DNA from: a virus
Length of the DNA stretch: 28,655 nt
Strand: one strand, 5' to 3'
Virus record (IMG/VR): IMGVR_UViG_3300034063_000150
Location: 1-28,655 of that record
Position numbers and translations under genes: made by a program. Under the pieces are notes generated by a model. It ran no database searches and had not been told where the DNA came from. It saw only the letters and a list, made by a program, of their open reading frames with translations. This document shows positions 2,803 through 25,842 of the stretch, piece by piece (position 1 is the first letter of the stretch; each line of letters opens with the position of its first letter).

Positions 2803-4836
2803 TCAGTAGCTCCTGGAAATGATGGAACGGGTGACTCGGCCCCTGATCGCCGTGTCGAACGGTGGCCCGCCGAGCTGGCCGCTGCGGGCGTCGATGCTCA
2901 AGCCACCGACAAACACCGCATTGCCGGCGTCGTCCTGGCCGCTGAACCTCACCCGCCCGCCGTTGCGTTGCACGATGCTGCGCTGGATGCGACTGGCGGC
3001 CCGGGCTGGTGGCACCCGGTAGAACTCGACCCCCGCCAGTGGAGCGGTCCACTGGTGGTTGATGGCCGTGATCAGCGAGCGCAGCCGGCGCTGCACGGGC
3101 TCCACCGGGCTCGGAGCAGGACCCTGGCCCACCTCGAGCCAGTAGTTGTCGAGGGTCGCCTTGAGCCGTGCCACCAGGGCTAGCACCATCGCCTCGGCGC
3201 CGGATGTGAGCTGGCCGCCGGCGACCAACTGTGATGCCAGCCGGTCCCAGCTGGCCTTGAACGCAGCGTGGAAGTCGTAGGTGTAGACGCACACCCCGTC
3301 AAAGCGGAACATGCCCTCGGCGAAATTGAGCATCGGCCGCTCGAAGCCATGCACCAGGCAGGCGCTGATGGCGTCAAGGAATAGGCCGCCATCCTTGCGG
3401 GTCAGGGTCTCGAAGCCGGCTGGCCAGGATGCGGCGTTGTGGTTGGCCACCAGGAAAGACCACATGTCATTCACCAGGGCCACCTTGCCGGCGTTGATGA
3501 TCGTGGCGGCAGTGGACTGGCTCGTCAGCAGGGACGGGGTGATTGTGAGCGGCTTGATCTGCTGTGTGCTGCCCTCGCTCCAGAAGCTGTAGTCGCCGAA
3601 CTGGGAGCTGGAGCCAGACACCACCATCTGGCCGCCATCGAGGCAGACGAAGTGTTTGTGGGCGCCGACACCGATTGCATTGACCGGGTTGATGAAACCA
3701 CGGTTTCTGGACACATAGCCCATGCCGTTGGCGCTGCTGGGCGTGAAGCCCCAGGTCATGATGTTCGGGTAGACCGAGTAGGGCGACAGCACCAAGGCGT
3801 CGGCCAGCGCACAGCCGCCGCCCCTGGGGTGGGCCGGGTTGCCGTTCTTGGGGTCCATCGGCAGCGGTGTCGGCACCTCGGTCAGGGCCGACGTGACCAC
3901 GCAGTTCTGCCCGTAGGGAACGCCGCCGGGGAGGATGATCGCGCCAGGCCGGAAGGCCATGGCGAAACCCTTGGTGGGGTTGTCGAAGTCATCAATCTCC
4001 CAGCCGGTGAACTTCAGGCCTTGCAGGTGGACACCATTGCCGCAGAGGAACACGTTGCTCTGCTCGTCGCCGGCCGTGGGCCTGCAGACGGAGCGGCGCT
4101 GAAAGTTGACGCCGTTGATGGTGGTGAAGTCGGGAACTTCGAGCTCGCCTGGGGTGTCGAAGTCGCCCAGCACCCGAACGGTCCAGCCGGTGGGTTCTGT
4201 TTGCGCCTCGATGAACTCCAGCGCCCGCTCGATGCTCAGGAACGCTCGGTCTTCATTGCGCCCACTGGAATTGTTGTTGCCATCCGGTGCGATGTAGACC
4301 GTCTTGTAGACGGAATGACTGGGTGCGGCCCGAACGGTGATGTTCTGGGTGCCGTTGAATGGCACGCCGTTGATGGTCCTCGCGGTTTGCAGGCGAACCG
4401 CCGCATTGGCCAGGTTGGCCGAGCCGGCCAGCGTGGCGAAGGCGGCTGTGTCAGCGCTGTTGCTCGATTCCGACAGCGCTGCAAAGCGGCTGCGGTCGAG
4501 CAGCTCTTGCACGATGTAAAGGATCTGCAGGTCGGCGGTGTTCTGATCGAACGACTGCAGGTTTGAGGCATCGGTCCACTGGACGAGCTGCGCCTCCTTG
4601 GGTGTGTTGCGCAGGATGGTCAGCTCGCGACCGCTTGCCGGTGGGTCCGTGAGCCTGATGGTGGTGCCGTTCAGCCAGGTGAAGCCGGTGGGGTCGAATA
4701 GCTCATCGACCAGGGTGTCCTCGAAGTAATCCCACTCGTAGCCGACCCTGACGTGCGCCCTGCGGAGATAGGGGAACGGCACGACGAAGTTGCTGGTGCT
4801 GCCGTCACCGGAATAGGAGACGTAGGAGAGGGGCAC
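2803..4836 (-). CDS. 17: Tail fibre protein, T7 gp17-like N-terminus (677 aa)
   Basis: Residues 1 to about 140 match the T7 gp17 tail-attachment domain: MPLSYVSYSGDGSTSNFVVP, then FTWLNGTTIRL, LTILRNTP and DLQILYIVQELLDRS. A helical segment follows. The region from about residue 175 on (YIAPDGNNNSSG, then SIERALEFIEAQ) looks like the start of a parallel beta-helix, as in many cyanophage fibres. Residues about 290-345 are rich in Gly and Pro (GAIILPGGVPYG, NPAHPRGGG). The last third carries a helix and a beta-rich tip. At 677 residues it is longer than T7 gp17 (553). The start is GTG at 4836 with no clear Shine-Dalgarno site; the MPLSY start fits the family. The start codon lies in a strong inverted repeat, annotated separately. 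It mediates host binding, six trimers per T7-like tail. Confidence 0.85.
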   Translation of the reverse strand: MPLSYVSYSGDGSTSNFVVPFPYLRRAHVRVGYEWDYFEDTLVDELFDPTGFTWLNGTTIRLTDPPASGRELTILRNTPKEAQLVQWTDASNLQSFDQNTADLQILYIVQELLDRSRFAALSESSNSADTAAFATLAGSANLANAAVRLQTARTINGVPFNGTQNITVRAAPSHSVYKTVYIAPDGNNNSSGRNEDRAFLSIERALEFIEAQTEPTGWTVRVLGDFDTPGELEVPDFTTINGVNFQRRSVCRPTAGDEQSNVFLCGNGVHLQGLKFTGWEIDDFDNPTKGFAMAFRPGAIILPGGVPYGQNCVVTSALTEVPTPLPMDPKNGNPAHPRGGGCALADALVLSPYSVYPNIMTWGFTPSSANGMGYVSRNRGFINPVNAIGVGAHKHFVCLDGGQMVVSGSSSQFGDYSFWSEGSTQQIKPLTITPSLLTSQSTAATIINAGKVALVNDMWSFLVANHNAASWPAGFETLTRKDGGLFLDAISACLVHGFERPMLNFAEGMFRFDGVCVYTYDFHAAFKASWDRLASQLVAGGQLTSGAEAMVLALVARLKATLDNYWLEVGQGPAPSPVEPVQRRLRSLITAINHQWTAPLAGVEFYRVPPARAASRIQRSIVQRNGGRVRFSGQDDAGNAVFVGGLSIDARSGQLGGPPFDTAIRGRVTRSIISRSY

Positions 4837-4861
4837 TTGCTCTGCACCGTTGCAGATCCAT
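4805..4861 (-). CDS. Possible leader peptide ORF overlapping the tail-fibre start (18 aa)
   Basis: An ATG at 4861 has GGAGAGG 6 nt upstream, a better ribosome site than the fibre gene itself has. It reads MDLQRCRASAPLLRLLFR and stops at a TGA 29 nt inside gene 17 in another frame. The sequence shows no conserved motif, so the peptide itself may not matter. Ribosomes translating it would pass through and open the stem that covers the gp17 GTG start. It may equally be chance. Confidence 0.35.
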   Translation of the reverse strand: MDLQRCRASAPLLRLLFR

Positions 4862-4874
4862 TGTGCCCCTCTCC
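4825..4874 (-). promoter_or_regulatory. Nested RNA stem-loop covering the tail-fibre start codon
   Basis: On the transcript, GGAGAGGGGCAC (4874-4863) is perfectly complementary to GTGCCCCTCTCC (4836-4825), a 12-bp stem. The second arm is the GTG start and next three codons of gene 17. Inside it, TCTGCA (4856-4851) pairs with TGCAGA (4846-4841) across the tetraloop ACGG. The internal loop is AATGGA opposite GCAA. The structure would hide the fibre start codon; the pairing is seen in the sequence, the regulatory role is inferred. Confidence 0.6.
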
Positions 4875-4884
4875 AGCGCCAGCG

Positions 4885-7800
4885 CTACCTCAAGGCGGGC
4901 TGGCCCAGGGCCTCCATCAGATCCTGCAGCCGGTTGGTCTGCTGGGTGAACTGCTGCTCGGCGATGGCGGTGCGCTTCTGGCGCCAGTCCTGGGCGTCTG
5001 GGGTGTCGGATGCGTTGAGCTGATCGAGCGTGAGCAGGGAATAGTGGTCGTAGATGCCCTGGATCATCCGCGATGCGGCCTGCTGCCGGCGCTGCGATGG
5101 CGGCATGTCGCGCACCTCCAGGTCGGAAGTGGTGCCGGGCTGGTCCTGCATCCGCTGGTACACCGGATCGTTGAACAGGCTGGTGAAGGCCTCCACGATC
5201 GTCTTGCCCTTGACGTGCTTGCTCAGGAACGGCCCCAGGTCGATCGTCGCTGAATCGCCCGCCTTGGTGACCACCACACCAGAGCCGGCGAACTGGTTGC
5301 GGAGGTCGATCGGGATCTCCTTCTTAAAGCTGAAGGTGACGTTGATCTTGCGGCCAGCCAGCTCTGCGCGGGCCTCCAGGGGGATGCTGCCCTTCACGGT
5401 GCCGAAGGTGTCGTTGTACTCCTTCTGCAGCTCTGCAGACATCGCCACGCCCTCCAGCCGGCGGGTGAGCAGCGGCAGCGGCAGCCGGAGCTGGCCCTGG
5501 GCATCGAGCTCGGCATAGACCCGCTGGTTGGCGCGGGGCCACATGCGGGGGTGGAAGCGGCTCTTGAGTGCTTCCTTCCAGTCGGCGCCGAACTCAAGCT
5601 GGATCGGCTGGCCCAGGAAGTCCTGCTCCTTGCGTGGTGCGCCGCCGGGGAGGCCCAGCAGGGGGATGGTGCCGTAGGCCAGGCCGCGCAGGGTGCGTTC
5701 GGTCTTGGTCTGCCAGTCCTCCTCGCCCAGCCCGTAGCGCTCCTCGCCCAGCGGGTCGCGGTCCTGGTAGAGGTCGGCGCCACCGAAGCCGGTCACACGC
5801 TGCGCATCGCGCATGACGCCGCTGAACGGCAGCTGGCCCTGGCCCAGCCAGCCCACCAGCCGCGGCATTTCGTTCTCGGGGTCGAGCAGTGCGTCGATCA
5901 GCCGCTGCATCTGGCCGAAGCCGGTCTGGCGGATCAGCTGGCTGGTGAGCACCTGGGCGATCCCCCAGAAGGCGTTGTACTGGTCGAAGCTGGAGTAGTT
6001 GCCGCTGACGAAGGTTTCCTTGATGTCCTTCCACAGGAACAGCGTGTTGAGGATCGGCAGGCCGCCCAGGTAGGGGATGCCGGCGATGCTGTTGGGCTTG
6101 CGGCCCTCCAGCAGGAAAGCGCGGCGTGCCTCGGGCGGCAGCGGGCCGTTGCCCTCGATCAGCCCGGCCATGTCCAGCCCAGCGAACAGGCCCAGCAGCC
6201 CGCCCGTGGTGACCCAGCCGGCCTGCACCTTGGCGATCTGCTCCTGGGTGGGGTTCTTGCCGAAGATCACCTCGACCGTCTCGGCCAGCGGGCCGAAGGT
6301 GAGGCGGGTGTCGAACAGGAACTGGTTGAACGGCGCCCGCCAGTAGGGCACCAGCGAGTCAATGGCCCAGTGCTTGCGGGCGGTCATCACCGCCTCGTCG
6401 ATGGCGGCAGGCAGCCCACCCTCGGGGGCGCTCTGCATCCGGTTGCGCAGGCTGTAGTCCATGGCGCCCTGGGCCTCGGGCGTGTCGAGCGTGGGGTAGC
6501 CGTAGGTGTTGCGGGCGCGATCGGCCGTGATGATCGAGCGGATCTCGTCGTCGCTGATGTCGCTGCCCTTGAGCTTGTGCTGCCGGCGGAAGGCCAGCAC
6601 GTTCTCCTCGGTGGGCGCCAGCTGGTAGAAGGCGTTGTCCAGCTGCTTCTCCACCCACTCCTCGCGGCTGCGCTGGTCGAACAGGCCCAGCTGCGCACCG
6701 TCGCGGCGTGCCTTGATCTCCAGGTCGTTCTTGAGCTTGAACAGGAAGGCGTCGTAGCCGAGCACGCTGTCGGTGGCGCTCATCGCCCGCAGCGCCGGGG
6801 TGAGCACCTCATGCCGGCCGGTCCAGTGGAAGGCGAGCATCCGCGTGCCGGCCTGGATCTTGTGGACGGTGCGGGCCCAGTTCTCCGGCCGCAGCGGGCC
6901 GCCGGGCAGGTAGGGCTCATCCAGCAGGCCCTTCACCTGGGCGAGCAGCTGATCGTTGCTGCTGGCCCGGGGCCCGTAGGTGTCGAGGTTGCCGCCGAAC
7001 GGTGCATCGCCACGGAAGAAGGAGTCAGCCGCCAGCTCGCGCCAGGCACGCCGCACGCCGTCGTGGGAGTATTTGGCGCTCTCCCATGCCACCCGCAGGC
7101 CTTCGCTGAACACCTCGCGGGTGAGCTTTGTGCCGTTGGGGGTGAGGTTGCCGATGTTCTCGAACGCCTGGTGGGCGAACCCGTGGGTGTTGGCCAGCCA
7201 GGTGCCCATGAGGTTGGCCCGCACCTGGCTGCCGAAGTTTGTCAGCTGGGCGTCCTTCACCAGCGCATTGCCGAAGCGCATGTGGGTGTTGGCCCAGCCG
7301 TCATCAAGCGTTGCTTCTGGGTCGATCGAGTCGAGCACCGCTGTGATCCGCAGCTGCTCGATCGCCTCGGCGTCGCCGTTGTCGATCGCCTCGATCACCT
7401 TGGCGAAGTGCTCATCCGGCTTCACGTCTGCAGCCTTGGCGCCCAGCGTCTGCGCTGCCTCGGCCATGTCGGGCATGAACATTTCCGGCCGGTCGAAGTC
7501 GGTCTGCAGCGACCGCAGCGCCTGGCCGGTGTTGCGCTTGGCGGCGGCCACATGCCGCTCAGCCATCAGCGCTGTCTTGTAGGAGCTCCAGGCCCGCTGC
7601 TTGAGGCCGTCAGGCACCTTGGAGCTGGTGCTGCCCATGAACTGGTGGATCTGATCCAGCGTGCTCAGGTAGCCCTCCTTGGCCATGTCGGAGACGAACC
7701 GCAGGCGGGTCATCTTCTCGGCCAGGTTCATGAACCCTGCGGTGTTGTTGGCCAGCGATGTGGCGATGGCGTCCGCGTCGATGTAGTCCTTGTAGGCATT

Positions 7801-8268
7801 GGCCACGGTCTCCATCAGCCGGTCGCGGCCCCACACCTCCGTCACCAGGCGAAAGTCCTCGGGCGCCATCTGCTTCCAGGTGCCGACCAGCGCCTCGGTG
7901 AGCCGCGCCCAGTCCTCGGCATCGCTGATGTTGGCGTTGTCAATCAGCATCCGGTAGTTGACGAACCGGCCATTGCTGCCGACCGGCTTGGAGCGATTGC
8001 CCAGGCCGCGCTGCACCACCTGGTTGAGCTCGTTGGATTCAAGCCGGTTGGCGAAATCGCTGTAGGCCCGGTCGATGTCGGCATCCGTGAGCGAACGGAC
8101 CGAGCCGTCCTGCATCTTGAACACCCACTGCTTCTTCACCTCGGTGCGCAGGAAGGCCTCGCCGGCCTTGCGTGCGGCCTCGGAGGTGGAGAGCTCCTGC
8201 CGCAGCTGAGCGTTTTGCTCCTGCAGCTTCTGGATCTCATCGAAGTAGTCGTTGCAGTTGTTGGACAT
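4885..8268 (-). CDS. 16: Internal virion protein, gp16-like (1127 aa)
   Basis: A large, mostly helical protein just before the tail fibre gene, the place of T7 gene 16. The N-terminus is a coiled coil (about residues 10-35, DEIQKLQEQNAQLRQELSTS). Residues about 680-745 hold two hydrophobic segments (VTTGGLLGLFAGLDMAGLI and IAGIPYLGGLPILNTLFLW), followed by DIKETF. This resembles the C-terminal part of gp16-type proteins, which line the trans-envelope channel during DNA ejection. The transglycosylase domain that begins T7 gp16 is absent; a muramidase-like domain is found at the end of gp15 instead. The start at 8268 is 2 nt after the previous stop and has AGGAGG about 12 nt upstream. Likely packaged in the capsid core and ejected into the cell envelope. 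The assignment rests on position and overall character. Confidence 0.7.
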   Translation of the reverse strand: MSNNCNDYFDEIQKLQEQNAQLRQELSTSEAARKAGEAFLRTEVKKQWVFKMQDGSVRSLTDADIDRAYSDFANRLESNELNQVVQRGLGNRSKPVGSNGRFVNYRMLIDNANISDAEDWARLTEALVGTWKQMAPEDFRLVTEVWGRDRLMETVANAYKDYIDADAIATSLANNTAGFMNLAEKMTRLRFVSDMAKEGYLSTLDQIHQFMGSTSSKVPDGLKQRAWSSYKTALMAERHVAAAKRNTGQALRSLQTDFDRPEMFMPDMAEAAQTLGAKAADVKPDEHFAKVIEAIDNGDAEAIEQLRITAVLDSIDPEATLDDGWANTHMRFGNALVKDAQLTNFGSQVRANLMGTWLANTHGFAHQAFENIGNLTPNGTKLTREVFSEGLRVAWESAKYSHDGVRRAWRELAADSFFRGDAPFGGNLDTYGPRASSNDQLLAQVKGLLDEPYLPGGPLRPENWARTVHKIQAGTRMLAFHWTGRHEVLTPALRAMSATDSVLGYDAFLFKLKNDLEIKARRDGAQLGLFDQRSREEWVEKQLDNAFYQLAPTEENVLAFRRQHKLKGSDISDDEIRSIITADRARNTYGYPTLDTPEAQGAMDYSLRNRMQSAPEGGLPAAIDEAVMTARKHWAIDSLVPYWRAPFNQFLFDTRLTFGPLAETVEVIFGKNPTQEQIAKVQAGWVTTGGLLGLFAGLDMAGLIEGNGPLPPEARRAFLLEGRKPNSIAGIPYLGGLPILNTLFLWKDIKETFVSGNYSSFDQYNAFWGIAQVLTSQLIRQTGFGQMQRLIDALLDPENEMPRLVGWLGQGQLPFSGVMRDAQRVTGFGGADLYQDRDPLGEERYGLGEEDWQTKTERTLRGLAYGTIPLLGLPGGAPRKEQDFLGQPIQLEFGADWKEALKSRFHPRMWPRANQRVYAELDAQGQLRLPLPLLTRRLEGVAMSAELQKEYNDTFGTVKGSIPLEARAELAGRKINVTFSFKKEIPIDLRNQFAGSGVVVTKAGDSATIDLGPFLSKHVKGKTIVEAFTSLFNDPVYQRMQDQPGTTSDLEVRDMPPSQRRQQAASRMIQGIYDHYSLLTLDQLNASDTPDAQDWRQKRTAIAEQQFTQQTNRLQDLMEALGQPALR

Positions 8269-20275: not shown

Positions 20276-20316
20276 AGCGGCTGCGACCGTGCAGACCAAT
20301 GCTATCGGCAGGCATG

Positions 20317-21403: not shown

Positions 21404-21510
21404 TGCAATGTGTGCGGTGAGCCTCTGCTATCTCGACGGGTTTGCGGTCAGGGTGTCGGCCTAGGCCGGCCTGTGCTCTGCGTGAGTGCAGACGTACTCA
21501 TGCACACCTT
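21404..21510 (-). promoter_or_regulatory. 107-nt leader between scaffold and capsid genes
   Basis: This is the longest gap in the structural module. It holds a perfect 12-bp palindrome CGGCCTAGGCCG (21457-21468) and a TGAGT/ACTCA hairpin (about 21482-21500). No T7-type or sigma-70 promoter is recognisable. Because the capsid must be made in excess, a phage promoter or an mRNA processing site here is plausible but not shown. Confidence 0.4.
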
Positions 21511-24519: not shown

Positions 24520-24915
24520 TCAATACGCTCCGATGTTGAGTCCGGTGCCAGCTGCAGCTGCCCCCTGCTCGATTCGCAGCTGCTTGCGCCCTGGGGCGCG
24601 GCGCTTGCCGGTGCGGTTGCTGGCCAGCACCGGCGCCTTGGCGGTGGGTTCGGGGGCTGGTGCGCCAATCAGGGCCGTGATGCGCCTGGCGTCAGCCTCC
24701 GTGCTCTTGGCTCGCTGCATCGTTGCAGCGTTCAGGCGCTCCAGCGTTGCCTGCTGATTGAGCAGGGCAGCGTCGTACTCCCCCTGTCTCCTGGTGGTTC
24801 GCCGCTGCTGCGCACTGTTCATCAAGGCCAGCTGCCGGTCGAGCCGCCGGTCGCTGGCGTCGGTGTCGGGCATCCTGATCACTGCCCGCTGGCTGCCACC
24901 TGAGCCGGAGCACAT
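24520..24915 (-). CDS. gp6.7/gp7.3-like small virion protein (131 aa)
   Basis: Begins MCSGSGGSQRAVIRMPDTD, followed by an Arg/Gln/Ala-rich helix (residues about 20-80) and a basic tail GKRRAPGRKQLRIEQGA that ends GTGLNIGAY. Both ends resemble the next protein (MC.GS at the start, LRI...GA...GLNIGA at the end). In T7, gp6.7 starts with MC and has GRKGLKVER, and gp7.3 ends GGGINI. It is likely a small ejected or tail-assembly protein. The start has AAGGAGG 8 nt upstream and shares one base with the previous stop (TGATG). Confidence 0.65.
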   Translation of the reverse strand: MCSGSGGSQRAVIRMPDTDASDRRLDRQLALMNSAQQRRTTRRQGEYDAALLNQQATLERLNAATMQRAKSTEADARRITALIGAPAPEPTAKAPVLASNRTGKRRAPGRKQLRIEQGAAAAGTGLNIGAY

Positions 24916-25082
24916 CAGCCCAGGCCTCCTTGCTGTTCGGCGTGCCAGCGCTTGATGCAGTCCACGACTGACTGCTCGCCGATCAGGTGGTCGATCTCCC
25001 TGTGGGACATCGACCGATCAGGCTTGCGGCCAAAGGTGGCATCCAGCTTGGCGATCAGTTCGTCGCTGACGAGTGGAAACAC
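24915..25082 (-). CDS. Small hypothetical protein (55 aa)
   Basis: A GTG-started ORF filling the gap between the exonuclease and the gp6.7-like gene. It reads VFPLVSDELIAKLDATFGRK, then PDRSMSHREIDHLIGEQSVV and DCIKRWHAEQQGGLG. The 'P.VS.ELI..LD..F' opening and 'E......G...VV..IK..' tail are like short proteins found before the portal in several T7-like phages, as I recall. It overlaps the next start by one base, and its stop lies next to that gene's ribosome site. An in-frame TAG upstream excludes a longer ORF. The ribosome site is weak. Function unknown. Confidence 0.6.
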   Translation of the reverse strand: MFPLVSDELIAKLDATFGRKPDRSMSHREIDHLIGEQSVVDCIKRWHAEQQGGLG

Positions 25083-25101
25083 TGCACCTATGCAGACTTC
25101 A

Positions 25102-25842
25102 TCAGGCTACCGGGGGCTCCCATAGTCGGACAGTGTGGGTGTCGAGGTCGTATTCGCCTGGCCGGAGGATGCGTGCGCAGCGTGCTTGCTGGATGGCATA
25201 GCGCTGATCGAGACCCTTCTTGCCAAAGGCAGCAACGACAGCAGCCCACATCTCCCGTTCAGTCATGCAGCCGGCCAGCGCCTTCTCAGCCGCCACAGGG
25301 CCGCAACCCGGGCAGCCGGGGTAGTTGTCGCTGGTGTCACCCACCAAGGCCTGGGTGTAGAAGGCCAGGTCCGCGTCGAATTCGGACACCTCGATGACCT
25401 GCCCGTTTCGCAAGTGGTAGCCGGGGAGGGTGAGCATGTCCTTGTCGGTCGAGGCGATCACGTCGCCTTGCTCGTAGAGGATGCCCAGCACGTCATCACC
25501 TTCCACGTCAGGGAGCTCAACCACCTCCCACCCACGGGCCGGGGCAACCTTGCGGACCCACTCGCGCAACTTGCTGTAGCCAGCGGGCTTGCGGTACTTC
25601 TTGCGGTTGGCCTTGTACTTGGGCCAGACGCCATAGCGGAACGAGACGCCAGCGGAGAACACCAGCACCGGCTGGAGACCTTGGAGGTTGTCGAGGATCT
25701 CGGCGATGGAGTCCTGGAACAGGGCCTGCGCATCGCCGTGGCGGCAGATGTAGGTCCAGTCATCAGGGGCCCACTCGGCTTCCATTTCGCACGCCGCAGC
25801 GGCGCGGAACAGGTAGACCTCGGTGTCAATCAGGGCTTTCAT
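25102..25842 (-). CDS. 6: 5'-3' exonuclease, T7 gp6/FEN-like (246 aa)
   Basis: Has the acidic metal-binding motifs of the 5'-3' exonuclease/FEN family: LIDTEVYLFRAAA at the N-terminus (D6), DVEGDDVLGIL (about residues 114-124), STDKDMLTLPG, and ALVGDTSDNYPGCPGCGPVA, the helix-hairpin-helix part. The basic arch region is WPKYKANRKKYRKP. In T7, gp6 removes RNA primers and degrades host DNA to feed nucleotides into phage DNA. The start overlaps the preceding gene by ATGA. It is followed by the structural module, as in T7 and P60-like cyanophages. Confidence 0.9.
   Translation of the reverse strand: MKALIDTEVYLFRAAAACEMEAEWAPDDWTYICRHGDAQALFQDSIAEILDNLQGLQPVLVFSAGVSFRYGVWPKYKANRKKYRKPAGYSKLREWVRKVAPARGWEVVELPDVEGDDVLGILYEQGDVIASTDKDMLTLPGYHLRNGQVIEVSEFDADLAFYTQALVGDTSDNYPGCPGCGPVAAEKALAGCMTEREMWAAVVAAFGKKGLDQRYAIQQARCARILRPGEYDLDTHTVRLWEPPVA

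Follow-up and report, generated by a model that had tools for sequence, protein, structure and literature searches.

The hairpin at a tail fibre start codon as a probable copy of a late-gene control element in T7-like cyanophages that look temperate

Why should the start codon of a phage tail fibre gene be enclosed in a perfect hairpin? The question is raised by IMG/VR virus record IMGVR_UViG_3300034063_000150, a fragment of a T7-like phage whose 28,655 bases were all analysed (the window). Its structural genes lie on the minus strand in the order portal, scaffold-position gene, capsid, tail tubular proteins A and B, three large genes and tail fibre. The fibre gene (gene 17, 2803..4836, minus strand, 677 aa) matches PHROG tail fibre families, with a best E of 1.4e-17 over residues 3-150. 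Upstream of it lies an 1127-aa gene (4885..8268, minus strand, stop TAG at 4885) that matched no PHROG family and has two distant matches only in the phage collection, in Synechococcus phage S-SRP02 and AP013547 (23-26% identity). The hairpin sits in the 48 bases separating this stop from the fibre GTG at 4836. S-SRP02 is the nearest isolate found, at low identity, and sequenced phages show no DNA similarity at the hairpin site. Relatives were gathered at all distances by means of the upstream 1127-aa protein and the fibre N-terminus.

The two arms of the outer stem, GGAGAGGGGCAC (4863..4874) and GTGCCCCTCTCC (4825..4836), both on the minus strand, are perfectly complementary over 12 bp and 26 nt apart. 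The 3' arm is the fibre GTG with the next three codons. A 6-bp stem, TCTGCA/TGCAGA (4856-4851/4846-4841, minus strand), is nested between them. A first, sequence-only reading had described this pairing and had noted that gene 17 has no good ribosome site; both points are confirmed, the fibre start having no Shine-Dalgarno sequence of its own. The RNA folding that it proposed as a check gives a local fold whose stability greatly exceeds that of shuffled versions of the sequence (z = -4.6 for the coding strand, -6.7 for the other strand). The start at 4836 is supported by L085 and L099, which have ATG at the exact position of the window's GTG. A search of the window for further copies of the outer arm gives 6 matches at two or fewer mismatches, against 7 expected.

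Two explanations were rejected. The hairpin is not an intrinsic terminator, GTGCCCCTCTCC being followed by TACGTCTCC, where a T run is absent. Read-through of the upstream TAG into the fibre was likewise rejected, as a TAG stands in frame at -24 in both L085 and L098. In the window itself the upstream TAG and the fibre are in the same frame with no stop between them (4837-4887), which is not so in L085 and L098. Fibre modules are also seen to switch at the leader. The leader of L091 is identical to that of the window while its fibre N-terminus is only 64% identical; L087 has a 98% identical upstream protein, yet its leader and fibre differ. The leader (4825-4885) may thus be a recombination joint.

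The sequence-only reading overlooked that other late genes carry the element of which the inner stem is one copy. This conserved leader element consists of an AT-ended box followed, after 4, 5 or 8 nt, by the dyad CTGCAN4TGCAG. At the fibre gene, box 1 (GGGGCACAAT, 4860..4869, minus strand) is a candidate late-promoter core that also accounts for the greater part of the outer stem's 5' arm, and the dyad, box 2 (CTGCAACGGTGCAG, 4842..4855, minus strand), is a candidate operator conserved in 75 leaders. About 25 relatives, whose fibre N-termini range from 98% down to about 38% identity, carry GGCAnAATAGGTCTGCAnnnGTGCAGA or a variant directly before the fibre start; in the 21 fibre leaders aligned, A14 and T18 of box 1 are invariant. 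Box 1 has a related form, CCGATAGCAT, in front of the tail tubular protein A gene. The leader there reads GCCGATAGCATGAGGnCTGCACCCCTGCAGAG and directly follows a GC-rich hairpin and T run resembling the capsid terminator; dozens of relatives have the two boxes in this position.

Three further copies lie on the minus strand of the window. The second (CCGATAGCATTGGTCTGCACGGTCGCAG, 20277..20313) occupies the tail tubular protein A leader, directly behind the capsid terminator. This gene most likely begins at ATG 20275 and not at TTG 20299, the start in the list of open reading frames, which falls within the element. The third copy (TGTGCATGAGTACGTCTGCACTCACGCAG, 21478..21506), with a gap of 8 nt between box and dyad, is in the capsid leader and has the same place in the capsid leaders of many relatives, which contain GGGCATGAGTTGATCTGCACnnGTGCA. 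The fourth (CCGGTAGCCTGATGAAGTCTGCATAGGTGCAG, 25078..25118) lies at the end of the gene at 25842-25102 and is found at the same place in relatives.

The relationship between these copies was examined with two covariance models. The first (R1), trained on fibre leaders and searched against 59 other loci, scores best there at the leaders of tail tubular protein A, in sense orientation. The second (R2), built exclusively from tail tubular protein A leaders of relatives outside the window's clade, identifies two sites in the window, 20313-20277 (31 bits, E 5e-8) and 25118-25078 (16.2 bits, E 0.0013), these E-values being rough, with models built from sequences picked after the motif was seen. The R2 match to the window's fibre leader is weak (4.8 bits); the link to the fibre leader rests on the reverse search with R1 and on the intermediates L104, L107, L111 and S-SRP02. 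The fibre box is thus a divergent version, with relatives such as L104 (GGCCGATAAGGTAAGACTGCACAGGTGCAGAGC) providing the connection. Box 1 varies among the genes of one phage, more than is usual for T7-type promoters; common to the sites within a genome are only the dyad and an AT-ended box, 4, 5 or 8 nt apart. Both DNA patterns are rare in IMG/VR (9 and 40 stretches). A naive scan for direct repeats in S-SRP02 returned mostly repeats within genes.

The dyad is over-represented. The window contains 4 copies of CTGCAN4TGCAG where 0.16 would be expected, and among 5-4-5 dyads it ranks first, alone or jointly, in six of seven near-complete relatives. In S-SRP02, 7 of 9 copies (at most one mismatch) lie outside genes by the published gene positions (p 1.5e-5). 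Exact copies within genes of the window are located at 5425-5438 and 24715-24728, the first of which G047 and G025 share at the corresponding position.

The window, as a fragment, is without polymerase, MarR and integrase genes, which are known from relatives. A T7-type RNA polymerase (PF00940) is found in 12 of 15 relatives, the nearest (G047) included, and a winged-helix MarR-like gene and an integrase gene lie side by side just before it. In relatives, a plus-strand dyad is found near -135 relative to the phage RNA polymerase gene (-204 in G018). S-SRP02 and G020 carry in addition a reverse-oriented (minus-strand) dyad at -63 from this gene, a site that did not score in every relative. In S-SRP02 it is flanked by TTGACC and TGAAAA, whose spacing, judged by eye, resembles that of -35 and -10 boxes. 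Two copies of the variant CTACRGCCCCGCAG precede the polymerase gene of AP013547, and CTGCAGCCCTGTAG precedes its MarR gene; most other relatives show no close dyad match before the MarR gene. Beside the integrase gene, upstream of the polymerase gene, the sequence GGACTCATAATCCG resembles a tRNA anticodon arm (L132/L133 in G047, L134-L136 in G018, L144 in G025 and L128 near 39970). It is a possible phage attachment site and perhaps points to a temperate life style.

With a probability of roughly 0.55, we read the fibre hairpin as a copy of a repeated late-gene control element, a late promoter together with an operator, perhaps of a MarR-type regulator, in an apparently temperate group of T7-like cyanophages. 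Box 1 would most likely be the core of the promoter where the fibre mRNA begins, and CTGCAN4TGCAG most likely a DNA operator just behind it. The operator would plausibly be bound by a MarR-type lysogeny regulator, silencing the late genes and the phage RNA polymerase gene. Both the promoter activity and the repressor binding are what we infer from letters, repetition, position and conservation.

In the window's lineage, box 1 is also complementary to the region of the start codon. It doubles as the 5' arm, so that RNA read through from upstream would fold into the 12-bp stem and hide the fibre start, whereas RNA begun at the box would lack the 5' arm and escape this closure. The predicted cost of opening the fibre start of the window is 23-26 kcal/mol in read-through RNA against about 9 in box-started RNA; the difference is about 12 kcal/mol in L085 and no more than a few kcal/mol in most other relatives. 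The predicted probability that the start codon is unpaired is 0.003 in read-through contexts of 50-200 nt. In box-started RNA with 150 nt of downstream sequence it is 0.10, the start being still mostly paired. The dosage or timing control suggested by the sequence-only reading is retained in part: the start is predicted to be buried in read-through RNA, but only in the window's immediate lineage, and by a route other than coupling to a leader reading frame (see below).

The outer stem is much less widespread than the inner element. In the closest relatives (L091, L097 and others) the leader is letter-for-letter that of the window. L085 retains 11 bp, and L098 a stem that includes one G-U pair and a bulge; only 7 bp are left in L155, and three pairs are disrupted in L088/L149. 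All 12 bp occur in no more than a few close relatives. A chimera test combined each phage's 5' flank with the start regions of all the others. Natural flank-start pairs bind slightly better over all phages (p=0.075) and no better than foreign flanks outside the window's clade (p=0.40), which leaves selection for flank-to-start pairing across the group unsupported. The sequence-only reading had looked for conservation of the pairing through compensatory changes; the chimera result and the broken or shortened stems of L088/L149 and L155 speak against it. What that reading had named as evidence against itself, relatives with the same fibre start but lacking the pairing, is largely what is seen: the stem is damaged in L088/L149 and L155, and in more distant relatives the pairing does not exceed that with foreign flanks. 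The RNA lock is best described as a lineage-specific overlay whose effect is predicted.

Whether the outer stem has any function at all is an even question. It could equally be a chance by-product, arising where a box containing GGGGCAC lies near a conserved start, GTG CCC CTC TCC TAC, and each arm would then have its own separate reason for conservation. The short stem of L155, the broken pairs of L088/L149 and the indifference to foreign flanks outside the clade are all consistent with this. So is the chance expectation: perfect inverted repeats of at least 12 bp with a loop of up to 40 nt are expected 0.3 times per shuffled window, so that only the position at a start codon and the repeated inner dyad make the present repeat notable. 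However, chance has to supply five more pairs beyond GGGGCAC, the stem is retained in L098 and L085, and the predicted effect of about 15 kcal/mol is large enough for read-through RNA to feel. This explanation concerns the outer stem only and is compatible with a promoter and operator as the origin of the inner element.

For the inner element itself, the chief rival assigns the promoter to the dyad. In T7, the late promoter phi17 precedes the fibre gene. The dyad with its preceding bases could itself be the promoter for a T7-type RNA polymerase of the phage, such as relatives encode, with RNA beginning just behind it and a nearly leaderless fibre mRNA. The absence of a Shine-Dalgarno sequence between dyad and start would agree with such an mRNA, the dyad is the best-shared part among the sites within one phage, and the full element is sense-oriented at late genes. 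Some copies (ATTGGGCTGCACCCCTGCAG in L052) moreover resemble the Syn5 promoter, ATTGGGCACCCGTAA (PMC3950665). The resemblance to promoters of the T7 family and Syn5 is limited to the presence of a candidate late promoter before the fibre gene and to letters that are partly alike; the element differs from them in having two boxes at variable distance, a dyad, and a box 1 that varies much among the sites of one phage. Dyad symmetry is unexpected in a T7-type promoter, as is a reverse-oriented copy before the polymerase gene of S-SRP02 and G020, and in the tail tubular protein A leaders box 1 is conserved to the same degree. We regard a promoter in the dyad as rather unlikely. The consequence for the outer stem would be the same with the promoter at box 1 or at the dyad: the 5' arm, being located within or ahead of the promoter, would be missing from RNA started there.

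It is less likely still that the inner stem acts as RNA, as a 5' hairpin protecting or processing late mRNAs in the manner of the T7 late mRNA leader hairpin. Most copies do fold as a stem, and for the fibre leaders alone the covariation score exceeds that of all shuffles, with changes on both sides in only 4 cells. However, in the 75 late-gene leaders, taken from three genes, pairing is lost at 45 of 375 pairs and a single change is compensatory, and one arm can decay alone (CAACACCCATGCAG) while the other stays. The dyad is conserved as sequence and not as RNA structure, a conserved RNA stem being rejected on these counts, which fit recognition of DNA.

The weakest proposal, that of the sequence-only reading, was that translation of an 18-codon leader reading frame would open the stem and make fibre synthesis dependent on it. 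This frame (4805..4861, minus strand, ATG 4861 to TGA 4805, out of frame) is present as described, running through the stem with the good Shine-Dalgarno-like GGAGAGG 6 nt 5' of its ATG, and it recurs in several close relatives. It is nevertheless judged not functional, and the coupling highly improbable, since the ATG is lost (AATGG to AATAG, ATG to ATA) in three of nine relatives with the same leader (L150, L151, L154), its bases derive from the box consensus, where AAT precedes A, G or T, and box-started RNA would leave the leader without a ribosome site. L148 and L154 are alike in leader and fibre start except for AATGG in one and AATAG in the other.

Occlusion of a start site by upstream RNA has been described for T4 gene e (lysozyme), soc and I-TevI, where RNA structure, promoters and a 100-fold effect on gene e were reported (PMC3014915). 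As in gene e, the fibre start of the window would be buried in a helix of read-through RNA, and the 5' strand of the helix overlaps a promoter, here a candidate one conserved with other late leaders. In contrast to gene e, the window has a promoter that is only predicted and a stem that few close relatives share, and the RNA polymerase belongs to a different type.

For temperate T7-like phages, the LUZ100 paper relays a hypothesis in which a MarR regulator represses the polymerase through sites flanking its promoter (PMC10134795). The relatives resemble the LUZ100-type phages, as that paper presents them, in the adjacent integrase, MarR-like and T7-type polymerase genes and in repeated sites flanking the polymerase promoter region. 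They depart from the proposal as relayed there in that the same dyad is also present in the capsid, tail tubular protein A and fibre leaders, so that late genes would be direct targets of the regulator. We found no report of dyads at late-gene leaders under MarR control, the LUZ100 hypothesis being taken in the form given by this citing paper. A combined scheme can be drawn, in which one MarR-type repressor acts on the polymerase promoter and on the capsid, tail and fibre leaders, and one lineage adds an RNA lock at the fibre start, giving two layers of silencing. We consider this full combination unlikely.

The element predicts where late promoters and operators lie in a freshwater phage group seen in many metagenomes; the paper on S-SRP02, the only isolate found for the group, leaves promoters unmentioned. 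It also illustrates that a textbook-looking start-codon hairpin with a leader reading frame can be mostly a DNA element overlapping a gene start. If the preferred reading is true, T7-like phages would be temperate by direct silencing of their late genes, and not through the polymerase alone.
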